Position numbers and translations under genes: made by a program
From: a virus
Reading direction: 5' to 3' (one strand)
Virus record (IMG/VR): IMGVR_UViG_3300021138_000171
Span: 1 to 23,730 of that record
Length of the DNA: 23,730 bases
The notes under the pieces: model-generated
Database searches by the model: none
What the model was told of the DNA's origin: nothing
What the model saw: the letters and a program-made list of their open reading frames with translations, nothing else
In this document: positions 1,454 to 8,042 of the stretch, piece by piece
Layout: each line of letters begins with the position of its first letter
Position numbering within the stretch: the stretch's first letter is position 1

Positions 1454-3244
1454 ATGATGACAACAATAAATTTTCCAACAGGCACCAGCAGTGGACAAAC
1501 ATACTGTGCACCTAATGGTAATACCTACACCTGGGATGGTTACAAGTGGACCGGACAGGTAACTGCTGTTGTAGGACCTAGCGGACCCCGTGGTGCACAA
1601 GGTTCTGTGGGACAACAAGGTGTTAGTGTTACATTAAAGGGCACAGTGGCAACATCAAGTTCTTTACCCGGATCTGGAAATAGTTTAGACGATGGATATA
1701 TTGCTCAAAATACAGGGCACCTATGGTTCTGGGGTAGTGATAATGCTTGGCACGATGCTGGTCAAATTGTAGGGCCAAGCGGACCTACCGGACCTACTGG
1801 ACCTGCTAGTACAGTGAGCGGACCATCGGGTCCCACTGGAGTAGACGGTGCTCGAGGCAATCAAGGTGCCCAAGGTGCAGCCGGAGGTGGCAGCGGGAGT
1901 GGTAGTCAAGGTGCCCAAGGATACCAAGGTACTGCCGGATCACAAGGATATCAAGGTACTGCCGGACCAAGCGGACCTAGTGGTGCACAAGGTTCAACAG
2001 GCGCACAAGGTGCAGCAGGATCGGGTGGTGGCGGGGGTAGCGGATGGCAGCTAACAACTAGCACTGGAGGCAGTGTTTCACTTTACTTTGGAAAGAATCC
2101 TTTCCCAGTCGGCGGCGGGTGCTATTCTGTTACCAGTATTGGCTCGTATACAAACATATTAGGGTTTAACTCTGCTACTATGATTGCCATGGCAGGCTGC
2201 GGTGGAATTGGCGGAACTGGTACCTTTGTTATAGAAAATGTTAAATTTACCTGTAATAATCCCTGTGTTCCTAATCATCCTTCGAACTATAATACTATTA
2301 TTTCCACCTATGGTGGATATATGAATTTCAATAGTTTTACACTGACCAATGTCGGTGGGACATTAAGACCAGTTAGCAATGGCGGCCTAGCTATAGGACC
2401 CGGTGGTAGTGTATTGATCTATGGCGGTGGCGGCGCAGGTGGTGGTAATCTAGTTCCTCAAAGCGGTGGCAGCGGTGTTACTCAACAAACCCTCGGCGGA
2501 TGTTGGGGTGGTTATGGACAAGTAAGCTATTGGAATACTACCTATAGTCAAAGTTTTGTAATGCCGCAGTACATTTTTGGAAATCCCTATGGCACAAATA
2601 CTTTTGGAGCATTATCTTCGGGAACTATCAAATTCAGTGATGGTAGTGTACAGATAACTGCCTACACTGGATCGTTTAATACTAGTACACTGGTAGCTCG
2701 AGCTGTTACAGCCACTAACGCTACTAATGTGTTAGGGTCTACTCAAACTGCAATTACCACATTAGGTACATTAACCAGTTTGTCAGTCAGCGGTAGTGTT
2801 AATGTAGGCGGTAGTGTTACCATGCCAAATCGCCCTGCATTCCGTGTGTATGGTGCAGGTGTTACCAATAATTTATCGACAACTGTTAACACCAACGGAA
2901 TATTAAATGGCAATAATTATGCTGTTGACTATCAACAGGGAACGGCATTAAACACATCAACTGGTGTATTCACTGCTCCTATTGCTGGACTATACAGTAT
3001 ACATCTTAATGCTCGTGTAGTCAGCAATACTACTTCGAGCGCACAGGTTATTGTTATTAAGAACTACGCTACTACCAGTTCAAATATGGTTATGTGGGAG
3101 CACGGAACAAACCCTTCAATCAACCATTTTGGTGTCAGCACCGTGGCTAGACTGGCAGTAGGCGATACACTGGTAACCAAGGTAACAGTGGGAGCCATTA
3201 ACTTCGACATCAATGATAATTGGGCAGTGGCCTACATAGGATAA
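1454..3244 (+). CDS. Collagen-like tail fibre with C-terminal C1q-like head
   Basis: This 596-aa protein has four parts. Residues 1-37 form a short aromatic module (FPTGTSSGQTY...WDGYKWTG) that is also present in the next gene. A folded insert (about 60-105, LPGSGNSLDDGY...WFWG) is flanked by Gly-X-Y runs, and further Gly-X-Y and glycine tracts reach about residue 195. The middle is beta-rich and glycine-rich and includes KFSDGSVQITAYTG, a motif common in phage fibres. The last ~110 residues look like a C1q/TNF-type jelly roll: STGVFTAPIAGLYSIHLNA, a VIKN strand, VSTVARLAVGDTL, and a terminal NWAVAYIG. Collagen-like stalks with C1q heads form trimers, so this is probably a receptor-binding fibre. 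AAGGA lies just upstream of two adjacent ATG codons (1454, 1457); either could be the start. Confidence 0.85.
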   Translation: MMTTINFPTGTSSGQTYCAPNGNTYTWDGYKWTGQVTAVVGPSGPRGAQGSVGQQGVSVTLKGTVATSSSLPGSGNSLDDGYIAQNTGHLWFWGSDNAWHDAGQIVGPSGPTGPTGPASTVSGPSGPTGVDGARGNQGAQGAAGGGSGSGSQGAQGYQGTAGSQGYQGTAGPSGPSGAQGSTGAQGAAGSGGGGGSGWQLTTSTGGSVSLYFGKNPFPVGGGCYSVTSIGSYTNILGFNSATMIAMAGCGGIGGTGTFVIENVKFTCNNPCVPNHPSNYNTIISTYGGYMNFNSFTLTNVGGTLRPVSNGGLAIGPGGSVLIYGGGGAGGGNLVPQSGGSGVTQQTLGGCWGGYGQVSYWNTTYSQSFVMPQYIFGNPYGTNTFGALSSGTIKFSDGSVQITAYTGSFNTSTLVARAVTATNATNVLGSTQTAITTLGTLTSLSVSGSVNVGGSVTMPNRPAFRVYGAGVTNNLSTTVNTNGILNGNNYAVDYQQGTALNTSTGVFTAPIAGLYSIHLNARVVSNTTSSAQVIVIKNYATTSSNMVMWEHGTNPSINHFGVSTVARLAVGDTLVTKVTVGAINFDINDNWAVAYIG

Positions 3245-3258
3245 ACAGGACAGCTTAA

Positions 3259-3266
3259 AATAAATA
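3259..3266 (+). promoter_or_regulatory. Putative T4-type late promoter (AATAAATA)
   Basis: A one-base variant of the T4 late octamer TATAAATA lies in the 44-base gap before the fibre gene at 3289. It fits late transcription of that gene, but it is short and in AT-rich sequence. Confidence 0.4.
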
Positions 3267-3288
3267 ACTTTGGATAAAATAAAATACT

Positions 3289-5451
3289 ATGGCAGCAATA
3301 CCTTTCCCGTCAAGTCCTACATCAGGACAACAATTCACCTATAACGGTACAACATATACCTACAGTGGTGTAGTATGGACTGGCGGCGTTACCCCGGCAG
3401 CAGGCGCCAGCGGCCCGACTGGTCCAAGCGGCCCAGTAGGTGCACAGGGTTCTACAGGACAACAAGGTACTAGTATTACAATATTGAGCACAGTGGCTAC
3501 CTCTGCTAGTTTGCCAGGATCGGGCAATACATTAGATGACGGTTATGTAGCAGCGGATACTGGACATGTTTGGTTTTGGGGCAATGACTCTCAATGGCAC
3601 GATGCTGGTCCAATCGCAGGCCCTAGGGGTGTAAGTGGAGCGAGTGGTGTAACAGGTCCAAGCGGCCCTAGCGGTTCTTGTGGTCCAAGTGGCCCTGTAG
3701 GTATACGCGGAGTAAGTGGTCCTAGTGGTGCAAGTGGACCCAGCGGTGTTCAAGGAACAACCGGATATCAAGGATTCCAGGGAACAATAGGTAACCAAGG
3801 CGTCAGTGGAGCGACTGGCCCTACTGGTGTTGTTGGTCCTAGCGGCGCACAAGGGCACCAAGGAGTCAGTGGCTCTCAGGGAGCTATTGGATCAGTTGGT
3901 ACACAAGGCGTTCAGGGAAATCAAGGCGTTCAGGGAAATCAAGGCGTTCAGGGTGCACAGGGACCTAGTGGTGCACAAGGTGTTATCGGATTAACCGGAT
4001 ATCAAGGATATCAAGGACCTAGTGGTGTACAAGGGCGACAAGGCCTACAGGGATTAATAGGTCCTACAGGTGTGCAAGGCATCAGAGGGTTTCAAGGATG
4101 TACAGGTCAATGCGGCGATACAGGATTTCAAGGTGCACAAGGTGCTCGAGGCTTCCAAGGCAGTGCTGGCCCAACCGGTCCACAGGGATGTAGCGGCAGT
4201 CAGGGTGCACAGGGCGTACAAGGTAATCAAGGAAATCAAGGCGTTCAGGGATTTCAGGGCACACAGGGCATTCAGGGAGCAACAGGCAATCAAGGAAACC
4301 AAGGCGTTCAGGGACGACAAGGTGTTCAAGGCGCAACAGGAAGCCAAGGAAGCCAAGGTAGTATCGGTAATCAAGGCGTACAAGGCACAACTGGTTCTCA
4401 GGGTGTTCAGGGAGCGCAAGGTCAAACTGGTAATCAAGGCAGTCAAGGCAGTCAGGGTGTGCAGGGCAACCAAGGACAAACTGGTGTACAAGGTTTCCAA
4501 GGCAGTCAAGGATTTCAAGGTCCTAGCGGTGCACAAGGAATAACAGGTTATCAAGGATGCAACGGATTTCAAGGCAGTCAAGGGCGCCAAGGTAATCAAG
4601 GCAGCAGCGGTCCGACAGGCCCTACCGGAGTGCAAGGATGTCGTGGTGTACAGGGTTACCAAGGATCTGCTAGTACAATAAGCGGACCAACTGGCCCAAG
4701 TGGGGTATTAGGTCCAAGCGGGCCTAGTGGTGTTACAGGTCCAAGCGGTGTTACAGGACCAAGTGGTGTACAAGGCACACAGGGAAACCAGGGTAGCCAA
4801 GGTGCACAGGGAACTCCTAGCACTGTGAGCGGTCCTAGCGGTGCACAAGGACAAACTGGAACTGGTGCACAAGGGCATCAAGGTTTCCAAGGTAGTGTAG
4901 GACCTACCGGAGTACAAGGCACACAAGGTTATCAAGGTGCTGCTAGTACAGTAAGTGGCCCAACTGGTCCGACTGGTGTACAAGGCACACAAGGTTATCA
5001 AGGTGCTGCTAGTACAGTAAGTGGCCCAACTGGTCCGACTGGTGTACAAGGAGCTGCCGGAACCGGATCCTTTCCATCAAGAGCACCTGCATATGGAACT
5101 GCATATAGTCTAGCACCCAATGCAGTGGGCACTGTAACATTGACAGGATATAAAACCTATGCATTGTCTAAGGTGTTAACATCTGCAGCAGCTCGAGTTA
5201 GATTTTACACAGATGCGACTAGTCAAGCTAATGATAGCTCTAGACCACAAGGATGTAGTGCTGCTCCCGGTAGCGGATTAATAGCCGAAGTTATTACCAG
5301 TTCTACAGCACTGACTCAATTGGTAAGTCCGTCAGTTGTAGGATCAAACAATGATAGTCCAGCATCGACTAATGTCTATGTAAATGTAACTAATCTTACC
5401 GGATCTACACAGGCTATTAGTGTAGAAGCATTTCTCCTAAGATTAGAGTAA
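3289..5451 (+). CDS. Long collagen-like tail fibre protein
   Basis: This 720-aa protein shares its N-terminus with the previous fibre: a short aromatic module (PFPSSPTSGQQFTY..WTGG) and the LPGSGNTLDDGYV...WFWG insert at about 83-105. That points to attachment at the same or an equivalent virion site. Residues ~107-600 are an almost unbroken Gly-X-Y domain rich in G-x-Q, with GPSGPTG blocks. The last ~120 residues form a compact domain (YGTAYSLAPNAVGTVTLTGYKTYALSKV...VEAFLLRLE), presumably the trimerising or receptor-binding tip. Several strings of nearly identical 9-18-base units occur in the gene, and one perfect 66-base tandem duplication lies near its 3' end, so stalk length probably changes by slippage. 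The stop codon overlaps a late-promoter-like octamer. Confidence 0.85.
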   Translation: MAAIPFPSSPTSGQQFTYNGTTYTYSGVVWTGGVTPAAGASGPTGPSGPVGAQGSTGQQGTSITILSTVATSASLPGSGNTLDDGYVAADTGHVWFWGNDSQWHDAGPIAGPRGVSGASGVTGPSGPSGSCGPSGPVGIRGVSGPSGASGPSGVQGTTGYQGFQGTIGNQGVSGATGPTGVVGPSGAQGHQGVSGSQGAIGSVGTQGVQGNQGVQGNQGVQGAQGPSGAQGVIGLTGYQGYQGPSGVQGRQGLQGLIGPTGVQGIRGFQGCTGQCGDTGFQGAQGARGFQGSAGPTGPQGCSGSQGAQGVQGNQGNQGVQGFQGTQGIQGATGNQGNQGVQGRQGVQGATGSQGSQGSIGNQGVQGTTGSQGVQGAQGQTGNQGSQGSQGVQGNQGQTGVQGFQGSQGFQGPSGAQGITGYQGCNGFQGSQGRQGNQGSSGPTGPTGVQGCRGVQGYQGSASTISGPTGPSGVLGPSGPSGVTGPSGVTGPSGVQGTQGNQGSQGAQGTPSTVSGPSGAQGQTGTGAQGHQGFQGSVGPTGVQGTQGYQGAASTVSGPTGPTGVQGTQGYQGAASTVSGPTGPTGVQGAAGTGSFPSRAPAYGTAYSLAPNAVGTVTLTGYKTYALSKVLTSAAARVRFYTDATSQANDSSRPQGCSAAPGSGLIAEVITSSTALTQLVSPSVVGSNNDSPASTNVYVNVTNLTGSTQAISVEAFLLRLE
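4912..5043 (+). repeat. Perfect 2 x 66-bp tandem repeat in the collagen-like gene
   Basis: Bases 4912-4977 and 4978-5043 are identical on reading and keep the frame, encoding two copies of a 22-residue block that starts VQGTQGYQGAAS and ends GPTGPTG. The start of a third copy (GTACAAGG) follows. Identity at synonymous positions indicates a recent duplication. Confidence 0.9.
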
Positions 5452-6194: not shown

Positions 6195-6923
6195 ATGAAA
6201 AAACTATTCACGTTCTTATTCCTAGCTGTGGCTCTCTTTGCTAGCACAGGTGCATTTGCACAAATCAATCAACAGTGCCCTCAGTTTACTGTCAACGGCA
6301 CTCCGCAATATCAAGCTCACCCTGGTGATCAAGAGATTTGCCACTTAAATTTTGCAGTTATCCATCGCTGCGATGTCAAGGCTCCTGTGGCTGTTTTCGA
6401 ACACTTGACTGTAGCCGCTATGACTGGTCCTGCTAAACGCAAAGACAACTTCCACCCAGATGCCAGCGTTACTCCTGCTTGCTCTGCTAGCCTAGCTGAC
6501 TATGCCACTGTGGGTAAAACACACGACCGTGGACACATGGCTCCTGCTGGCAATAATACTCAAAGCGATGCTATTATGAGCGAGAGTTTTAATCTTTCTA
6601 ACATGGTTGCACAGAACGCTAACAACAATAGAGGCGGCTGGCGCTTACTCGAAACTGCTGAACGCCAATGGGCTATGGCTCCGGGTACCGATTTCTACAT
6701 CATCTCTGGTGGTATTTTCGATGCCGGACATCCAGTAACTGGCAATGGACTAGGTATTCCTACTCGTTTGTATAAGATCATCATCGAGAAAAATAGCAAA
6801 CAAGTTCAAGCATATCTAATGCCAAATGGCCCTATTACCCCTGCTACCAGCTGGGCTCAATACAAAACCACAATGACCGAAGTAGAAAAAGCTACCGGTA
6901 TGAAGTTTAATCTTGGACAATAA
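6195..6923 (+). CDS. Secreted DNA/RNA non-specific endonuclease (EndoG/Serratia nuclease type)
   Basis: This 242-aa protein begins with a clear signal peptide (MKKLFTFLFLAVALFASTGAFA, cleavage after residue 22), so it should be exported by Sec. The mature part has the beta-beta-alpha-metal nuclease signature DRGHMAPAGN at residues 111-120, with His114 as the expected general base. The matching metal-site block NNNRGGWRLLE follows, with Asn145 and Glu153 at the positions of the Serratia nuclease Asn and Glu. Four cysteines (29, 49, 59, 96) could form disulfides outside the cytoplasm. The family cuts DNA and RNA with little sequence preference. In a phage it might degrade periplasmic DNA, help exclude competing phages, or act after lysis; these roles are inference. 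A late-type promoter and a good ribosome site precede it. Confidence 0.9.
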   Translation: MKKLFTFLFLAVALFASTGAFAQINQQCPQFTVNGTPQYQAHPGDQEICHLNFAVIHRCDVKAPVAVFEHLTVAAMTGPAKRKDNFHPDASVTPACSASLADYATVGKTHDRGHMAPAGNNTQSDAIMSESFNLSNMVAQNANNNRGGWRLLETAERQWAMAPGTDFYIISGGIFDAGHPVTGNGLGIPTRLYKIIIEKNSKQVQAYLMPNGPITPATSWAQYKTTMTEVEKATGMKFNLGQ

Positions 6924-7000
6924 TGTCAAATGAATATCCAGTTTATCCAGAGCAAGAGGGTGAGTGGGATCGTCCACTCAATCCTTACAGCCCTGTATGA
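6923..7000 (+). CDS. Possible 25-aa small protein, translationally coupled
   Basis: The ATG overlaps the nuclease stop codon (TAATG), a common coupling arrangement in this window. The product would be acidic and proline-rich (MSNEYPVYPEQEGEWDR...), soluble, and without a recognised domain. A perfect 7-bp hairpin (6961-6980) lies inside it, so this stretch may instead belong to the structured RNA region that follows. Without homologues the call is tentative. Confidence 0.35.
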   Translation: MSNEYPVYPEQEGEWDRPLNPYSPV

Positions 7001-7153
7001 CGGATTGGTAAGATTAGGATGCGGTTTATCAGGTATTCCGTATCCACCCTAACCCTACCTTGGGGACCGTTTGGCGTAACGGTATAGGCGTCCGCGAAAT
7101 TTCACTGCACCGCGTAGTGTGCTGGAGGATAAAGTAACCTCCTTTTCTTTTTT
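6961..7153 (+). ncRNA. Candidate structured non-coding RNA ending in an intrinsic terminator
   Basis: Between the nuclease gene and the next promoter there is a run of hairpins. The first is 6961-6967 with 6974-6980 (TGAGTGG/CCACTCA). The second is a long interrupted stem: 7007-7010, 7014-7017 and 7018-7024 pair with 7056-7059, 7049-7052 and 7038-7044 (GGTA/TACC, TTAG/CTAA, GATGCGG/CCGTATC with one G-T pair). The third is 7066-7071 with 7078-7083 (ACCGTT/AACGGT). The fourth is 7107-7110 with 7119-7122 (GCAC/GTGC). The last is the terminator stem. The region is locally richer in G+C than the flanking spacers and, apart from the small ORF at its start, carries no apparent gene. The D-loop-like GGTA patch is not part of a tRNA: no matching acceptor, anticodon or T arm is present. 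It could be a small RNA or a structured 3' UTR of the nuclease mRNA. Confidence 0.45.
7124..7153 (+). terminator. Rho-independent terminator
   Basis: GGAGG (7124-7128) and CCTCC (7138-7142) form a stem with a nine-base loop, followed by the T-rich run TTTTCTTTTTT. It closes the nuclease unit just before a consensus late promoter. Confidence 0.75.
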
Positions 7154-7172
7154 CTAGGTAATCTTATCCTAC

Positions 7173-7180
7173 TATAAATA
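7173..7180 (+). promoter_or_regulatory. T4-type late promoter, exact TATAAATA
   Basis: An exact match to the T4 late octamer lies 21 bases before the ATG at 7202, with an AGGA ribosome site in between and a terminator directly upstream. This is one of the clearest promoters in the window. Confidence 0.75.
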
Positions 7181-7201
7181 CAACAAATAGGATTTTATAC
7201 C

Positions 7202-7609
7202 ATGATCATCTCCGGCGGAATCAAGCTCAGTGCGGGAATTAACATAGCAGACCCAACAAATCAAGCAATTTTATTTCCACCTAGTCCTCCGCCTAGCCCA
7301 ACCCCAGCTCCAACCCCGGCACCTACTCCTAGCCCAACCCCAGCTCCAACTCCGGCGCCTTCGGGCCCATTTATTGCTAGCTATCTAATTGTGGCAGGTG
7401 GAGGCGGTGGCGGTGTCGGTGATGGTGGCGGTGGCGGCCAGTCTGGCGTCGGAAATGGCGTAGGCGGTGCAGGTGCTTCAGGTGTGGTTCTTATATCAGT
7501 TCCAACTGCAGCATGGGTAGGTACCTACACAGGTACAGCCACAGTGGTCACTACAGTGGGCACTAGTACTGTGCTGATATTTAAAGCCAGCGGAACCTTT
7601 ACTGCTTAA
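7202..7609 (+). CDS. Miniature glycine-rich adhesin with proline-rich linker
   Basis: This 135-aa protein is a short relative of the 304-aa glycine-rich protein at 14071. The two share the start (MIISGGIKLSAGI against MIISGGLNIQPGL), the SYLIVAGGGG entry strand, and the end (SGVVLISVPTAAW...VLIFKASGTFTA against SGVVIISVPAFSW...VVIYKSNGTFIA). Here the glycine core is only about 30 residues instead of roughly 220, and a Pro/Thr/Ala/Ser linker (about residues 28-56, PTPAPTPAP repeats) has been added after the N-terminus. Glycine-rich domains of this kind occur in phage tail adhesins that form packed polyglycine helices. It is probably a virion surface protein. Confidence 0.75.
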   Translation: MIISGGIKLSAGINIADPTNQAILFPPSPPPSPTPAPTPAPTPSPTPAPTPAPSGPFIASYLIVAGGGGGGVGDGGGGGQSGVGNGVGGAGASGVVLISVPTAAWVGTYTGTATVVTTVGTSTVLIFKASGTFTA

Positions 7610-7622: not shown

Positions 7623-8042
7623 ATGCACATTACTGAACTACTAGAGGGTATAGAAGGACTTGAACACCATAAGAAACTGTTTATGGAAATGTTTAAGAAA
7701 TTCTTACCTCTAGCCATGCACTATATTAAACTTAAATCTTTACCCAAGATGAAGTTTGAAGCACATATACACGATGATGTGCAGCCTACATTTGGCAAAT
7801 ATGACACCGGGGAGCGCACCCTTTATGTGGCATTGTTGAATCGTCACCCTAACGATATTTTAAGAACAATTGCTCATGAACTTGTCCATTTTCGCCAAGA
7901 CACTCAACACAAATTAGAACCAGATAGCGGCACTACTGGTAGCCCACATGAGAATGAGGCCCATGCCGTCGCTGGTGTAGTCCTTCGCCACTTTAATAAA
8001 CTCTATCCCGAGTATCTATCGGCTAAACCGATAACTGAATAA
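7623..8042 (+). CDS. HExxH zinc metalloprotein (putative metallopeptidase)
   Basis: This 139-aa protein contains the zinc-binding motif HELVH at residues 85-89, within a hydrophobic helix (ILRTIAHELVHFRQD). A later HENEAH segment (109-114) has Glu112 as a plausible third ligand. This arrangement is that of gluzincin-like peptidases, and small HExxH proteins of similar size occur in T4-like phages of aquatic bacteria. The substrate is unknown; virion maturation or cell-wall work are possibilities. The N-terminus MHITELLEG resembles those of other short proteins here (11122, 11514, 13683) and may be a capsid-targeting tag. No Shine-Dalgarno sequence precedes the ATG. A strong terminator begins within the stop codon. 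Confidence 0.75.
   Translation: MHITELLEGIEGLEHHKKLFMEMFKKFLPLAMHYIKLKSLPKMKFEAHIHDDVQPTFGKYDTGERTLYVALLNRHPNDILRTIAHELVHFRQDTQHKLEPDSGTTGSPHENEAHAVAGVVLRHFNKLYPEYLSAKPITE

Follow-up and report, generated by a model that had tools for sequence, protein, structure and literature searches.

A conserved pseudoknotted RNA element in genomes of uncultured phages

The locus and its coding upstream half

The window analysed here is a 23,730-nt stretch of IMG/VR record IMGVR_UViG_3300021138_000171, and all coordinates refer to it. Its nrdB gene, which matches Xanthomonas phage X1 best (64%), and the late-promoter-like motif TATAAATA identify the source phage, an uncultured virus, as a T4-like myovirus. 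A sequence-only reading had proposed a small structured RNA at 6961-7153. The following features lie in and around this region:

Ends at 6923: gene for a DNA/RNA non-specific endonuclease (PF01223; Endonuclease_NS), predicted to be secreted; upstream neighbour of 6961-7153
6923-7000, + strand: ORF1, 25 aa (MSNEYPVYPE..NPYSPV), proline-rich; a neighbouring gene outside the RNA
6930-7052, + strand: ORF2, 40 aa, overlapping ORF1 out of frame; its end reaches the first bases of the element
7050-7142, + strand: conserved structured RNA element (P1, P2, P4-P6 and a pseudoknot; P3 optional), defined by covariance models and covariation
7143-7153, + strand: U-run after P6, making P6 a possible intrinsic terminator in the source phage
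7173-7180, + strand: T4-type late-promoter-like TATAAATA before the next gene
Starts at 7202: downstream neighbour gene

ORF1 had been taken for the only coding sequence here. It is indeed present, but the overlapping 40-codon ORF2 had been missed, and together the two occupy 6961-7049. The ORF1 peptide motif N(D/E)YPVYPEDDGxDRPRNPYSPV accompanies the RNA at 53 of its 111 loci and occurs at 4 of 92 RNA-free loci; at one locus (L111) the peptide comes after the RNA rather than before. Homologues of ORF2 (..LTALY..GL..GIPYP) were identified in L008, L088, L092, L121, L122 and L086. In L033, a relative devoid of the element, ORF1 and ORF2 are followed directly by a homologue of the window's 7623 gene, and in L122 this homologue comes after the element.

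The series of hairpins on which the original proposal was based is all present in the sequence, but the hairpins within 6961-7049 are incidental by-products of coding. The perfect hairpin at 6961-6980 lies inside both ORFs and is missing from relatives. The long one at about 7024-7046 arises from the Gly and Pro codons of ORF2 and does not exceed in strength what synonymous recodings of that peptide give. Both were rejected as parts of the RNA.

Two further observations concern the window's proteins. Positions 1454-5451 encode two long proteins of collagen-like (Gly-X-Y) type, 596 and 720 aa in length, which are probably tail fibres. The window genes at 7623, 11122 and 11514, together with genes following the RNA in relatives, show recurrent N-termini such as MRAKEF..E, MKITELLxE and MHITELLEG, which may resemble T4 capsid-targeting sequences.

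Relatives, fold and covariation

The first relative, L008, lies near a close homologue of the nuclease and contains the same pieces with changed stems. A pattern made from the bases it shares with the window retrieved 24 viral contigs and wider patterns retrieved more; in total, pattern scans of viral contigs place the element at about 118 loci. The first 111 of these hold 81 distinct sequences. Nearly identical contigs from the same lakes account for many of the loci, and distinct sequences are counted where stated. Because relatives were gathered by sequence patterns, the search itself accounts in part for the absolute conservation of the bases in those patterns; a pattern limited to the 5' half recovered mainly the same loci.

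A covariance model of 44 sequences (R1) detects the window at 93.7 bits (E 6e-22). A second model (R2), built from 32 sequences with the window and its near-twin L001 left out, scores the window at 88 bits versus 68 bits for sequence only, the base pairs adding 20 bits. The elements of the fold are, in order:

7054-7065, + strand: P1, 3-bp stem (7054-7056 with 7063-7065), conserved loop ACCUU(A/G)
7067-7082, + strand: P2, hairpin CCGU / ACGG
7083-7086, + strand: site of the optional P3, only UAUA in the window
7093-7095, + strand: 5' strand of the pseudoknot (CGC), pairing over 3 bp with 7112-7114 in the P5 loop
7096-7103, + strand: P4, mini-hairpin with NAUU loop
7107-7122, + strand: P5, hairpin with loop GCGUA and bulged U7118; 7112-7114 form the 3' strand of the pseudoknot
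7124-7142, + strand: P6, hairpin GGAGG-AUAAAGUAA-CCUCC with near-invariant loop

Covariation was counted on 73 distinct sequences, with 500 shuffles and slid structures as controls. Paired cells in which both sides differ from the commonest pair numbered 260, against a shuffle mean of 62 (reached by none of the 500) and 23-72 in the slid structures. The proportion of paired cells was 93.9%, compared with 73.0% after shuffling and at most 42.5% after sliding; again, no shuffle attained the observed value.

The 3' half is the most regular. All five pairs of P5 and all five of P6 covary, and both stems, as well as the pseudoknot, are paired in every one of the 73 sequences. The P6 loop AUAAAGUNA is nearly universal. 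Within the pseudoknot, one pair varies (C-G, G-C, U-A, U-G) and the other two are invariant; in a divergent subfamily B (L173, L180, L186, L194, L213-L219), which carries an extra hairpin, the pseudoknot is formed by GGC/GGU with GCC/ACC, so the outer pair also switches from C-G to G-C. The inner pair of P4 is C-G in 55 sequences, A-U in 14 and U-A in 4, with no exception, while its outer pair is G-C in only 16 of 73, being mostly G-A.

P1 and P2, although short, have support. In P1, 96.8% of cells are paired, with C-G and U-A as alternatives for the outer pair; P2 is paired in 88% of cells as aligned, with C-G, G-C and U-A variants, its unpaired cells being mostly one-base alignment shifts. 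A P3 hairpin of at least 4 bp is present in 26 distinct relatives and shows matched changes, such as GTGTGAG/CTCACAC, AGCGAG/CTCGCT and GAGC/GCTC. Pairs of the G-U type are frequent in the stems (the P6 closing pair is U-G in 27 of 73), which fits an RNA read from the + strand. Two additional interactions were considered and discarded: a closing helix GGGAC/GUCC suggested by the window's own fold disappears in relatives whose sequence reads GGGCACG or GGAUCCG, and inspection of the alignment revealed no covariation for kissing between the P1 and P6 loops.

Evidently, 7050-7142 encodes an RNA conserved by selection on its structure. The candidate structured RNA is thereby borne out by strong covariation in related phages, although its limits shrink from 6961-7153 to this element. 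Folding energy gives a different picture. The box as originally drawn does fold better than shuffled sequence (-62.3 versus -53.6 kcal/mol, z -1.96, 9 of 200 as good), but the element alone does not (z 0.25; mean z of relatives 0.09), and minimum free energy alone would have discarded a real RNA here. The energy of the element, together with the coding nature of the 5' half of the box, is what one would expect if hairpins had formed by chance in coding or tightly packed phage DNA and there were no functional RNA at all. Such an explanation is hardly credible in view of the matched changes in the fully paired P5, P6 and pseudoknot. A protein-coding frame conserved within the element was also looked for and none exists: relatives are 90-155 nt long and differ by single-base indels, which excludes a reading frame.

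Genomic setting and flanking signals

Whole-record searches of 37 positive phage records (up to 364 kb), many of which may be genome fragments, found exactly one copy of the element in every case. Its neighbours are diverse, falling into 31 gene clusters upstream and 28 downstream. The position after a secreted nuclease, pointed out from the window alone, is common, accounting for 42 of the 97 loci with a called upstream gene, but it is not required, and the nucleases, the most frequent upstream genes, belong to two unrelated families (31 Endonuclease_NS, 11 SNase). We rejected dependence of the RNA on the nuclease: eight of ten RNA-positive records, including a 353-kb contig, have no Endonuclease_NS match. 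Seven large nuclease-carrying contigs lack the RNA.

In two phages the element sits among tRNA genes of the same strand, between tRNA-Met and tRNA-Asn in L143 and between tRNA-Ala and tRNA-Asp in L215; tRNA genes are also near the element in L131, L153 and L197. Three of these contigs contain a second, unrelated structured-looking RNA of the type GGGAUGGGAACGUC..GCGACGUAA..CAUAACCAGC (L131 1453-1540, L215 1656-1752, L143 6733-6848), located directly upstream of the element in the first two and apart from it, within the tRNA array, in the third. Only these three cases were found, and Rfam gave no match there. L215 also displays, beside its tRNA cluster, a weak match to the Y RNA-like YrlA family (2225-2324; 31 bits, E 0.001, gathering score 69).

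As a rule, the upstream gene has its stop codon only a few bases from the element. Of the distinct elements, 61% have a TAAATA no more than 45 nt downstream, compared with 2.8% of random positions. This enrichment is partly a general habit of such phages, since TAAATA also precedes 10 of the window's 23 gene starts by no more than 35 nt. The late promoter assigned to the unit after the RNA is present as a late-promoter-like TATAAATA at 7173-7180. Window gene starts preceded by such motifs include 5464, 7202 and 7623; at 7623 TAAATA is very close to the ATG, and near-leaderless mRNAs are therefore likely.

The claim that the RNA carries its own intrinsic terminator holds in part. A terminal stem with U-run is present in the window, but a strong U-run after P6 occurs only there and in L001 and L163; most relatives keep stem and loop without it. 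Even a loose rule classes no more than 13 of the 81 distinct elements as terminator-like. The "terminator" hairpin P6 is a conserved structural stem. Separate terminators are found downstream of the element in L131, L153 and L087.

These observations bear on the main alternative to an RNA gene, namely a cis-acting 3'-UTR element. In this role it would set the 3' end of the upstream late mRNA by termination or processing, or protect that end, and would insulate the transcript from the late promoter that follows. The nearby stop codons, the TAAATA that follows, the plausible terminator formed by P6 in three sequences and the separate terminators behind three others are all in its favour. We nevertheless regard it as unlikely, if a serious contender. 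Such phages have many late units, yet the element occurs once per genome; no upstream gene is common to its loci, few copies resemble terminators and two sit between tRNA genes. Moreover, termination needs neither a pseudoknot nor invariant loops.

Relatives conserve neither flank of the element, an observation that speaks against an expression platform. This matters for another possibility, that the element is a new, putative self-cleaving ribozyme or ligand-binding RNA. Small size, a pseudoknot and many invariant unpaired bases are typical of such RNAs, and a ribozyme has no need of an expression platform. With no conserved flank, no shared regulated gene and no match to an Rfam ribozyme or riboswitch, however, this reading appears improbable.

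Novelty and proposed role

The element belongs to no RNA family in the libraries searched and is new in this sense. Covariance models of Rfam 15 (4227 models) gave no match to window 6900-7260 up to E 10, and none over the element in relatives L091, L153, L214, L215, L217 and L143; neither ARAGORN nor Rfam reported a tRNA or tmRNA over it. It is absent from the isolate phages, plasmids and bacterial genomes searched: of nine loose hits in bacterial genomes, none reached significance with the model (lowest E 0.1, and that at other positions). No published description was found in the literature searched, though lists of RNA candidates outside Rfam and this literature could include it.

The closest known kinds of RNA are GOLLD, ROOL, manA and wcaG, from all of which the element differs in fold and setting. 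GOLLD and ROOL are structured RNAs of phages and prophages with no assigned function, often located near tRNA islands (PMC12286853). The element resembles them as a structured phage RNA with tRNA genes nearby in some phages, but GOLLD often exceeds 800 nt and the fold of ROOL is highly complex, whereas the element measures 90-155 nt, has another fold and matches no Rfam model. The manA and wcaG motifs, structured RNAs of T4-like phages known mostly from environmental sequence, have been reported upstream of metabolic or exopolysaccharide genes, which they appear to regulate (PMC2864571). Here, too, the likeness extends to host phage and environmental origin; unlike these leaders, the element follows stop codons, precedes mutually unrelated genes, is often separated from them by a late-promoter motif and has no Rfam match. 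Compared with intrinsic terminators, P6 and its U-run meet the definition in the window, while relatives mostly lack the U-run. A small pseudoknotted RNA beside a nuclease gene also recalls ToxI, the RNA of type III toxin-antitoxin systems. Unlike ToxI, the element is a single unit without tandem repeats or a constant neighbouring gene, and the adjacent Endonuclease_NS and SNase look secreted and are missing from many RNA-positive records.

Taken together, we consider it fairly probable that the element is a gene for a small noncoding RNA, carried by a group of uncultured aquatic T4-like phages, read through from late genes and acting in trans. Single copy, unrelated surroundings, tRNA neighbours in some phages and the lack of a conserved flank fit an RNA gene acting in trans better than a cis element. 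It speaks against this reading that the element mostly follows a stop codon and precedes a gene, as a cis 3'-UTR element would. With no promoter of its own, the RNA would be produced by read-through of the upstream late gene and trimmed to a stable form of about 90-135 nt; in the window, the transcript might alternatively terminate at P6 and the U-run. It would then act during late infection, most likely by presenting the invariant loops ACCUUAGG, CGUCCGCG, GCGUA and AUAAAGUNA to one protein or ribonucleoprotein partner, the conserved unpaired bases probably serving as the contact surface.

We also examined whether the RNA might be an antisense or mimic of rRNA, as its 5' half looks like antisense to the conserved H69-H71 segment of 23S rRNA. 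Local alignment to the 23S minus strand is suggestive (mean 15.4, maximum 23, versus mean 12.4, maximum 18 for shuffles), and the location in tRNA arrays would suit such a role. The resemblance was, however, noticed post hoc, duplex energies are unsupportive, being no better than those of shuffles (-81.9 versus -79.5, sd 11.8), and the best-matching bases, ACCGUU, vary among relatives. We set this candidate aside as very improbable.

A bolder form of the trans-acting RNA gene is conceivable, though we hold it to be rather doubtful: a new class of pseudoknotted phage RNA with a trans function of novel kind, for example a catalytic RNA or a decoy that disarms a host protein of translation or defence. 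Diverse aquatic T4-like phages would carry it as a single mobile gene, sometimes in their tRNA arrays.

To our knowledge, lytic phages have few structured noncoding RNAs, and most of these lack an explanation. The covariance model makes the element searchable elsewhere, and the fold gives exact mutations to test. A compact fold backed by covariation, present once per genome in many phages and in some of them within or near tRNA arrays, suggests that this RNA probably serves a specific purpose during infection.
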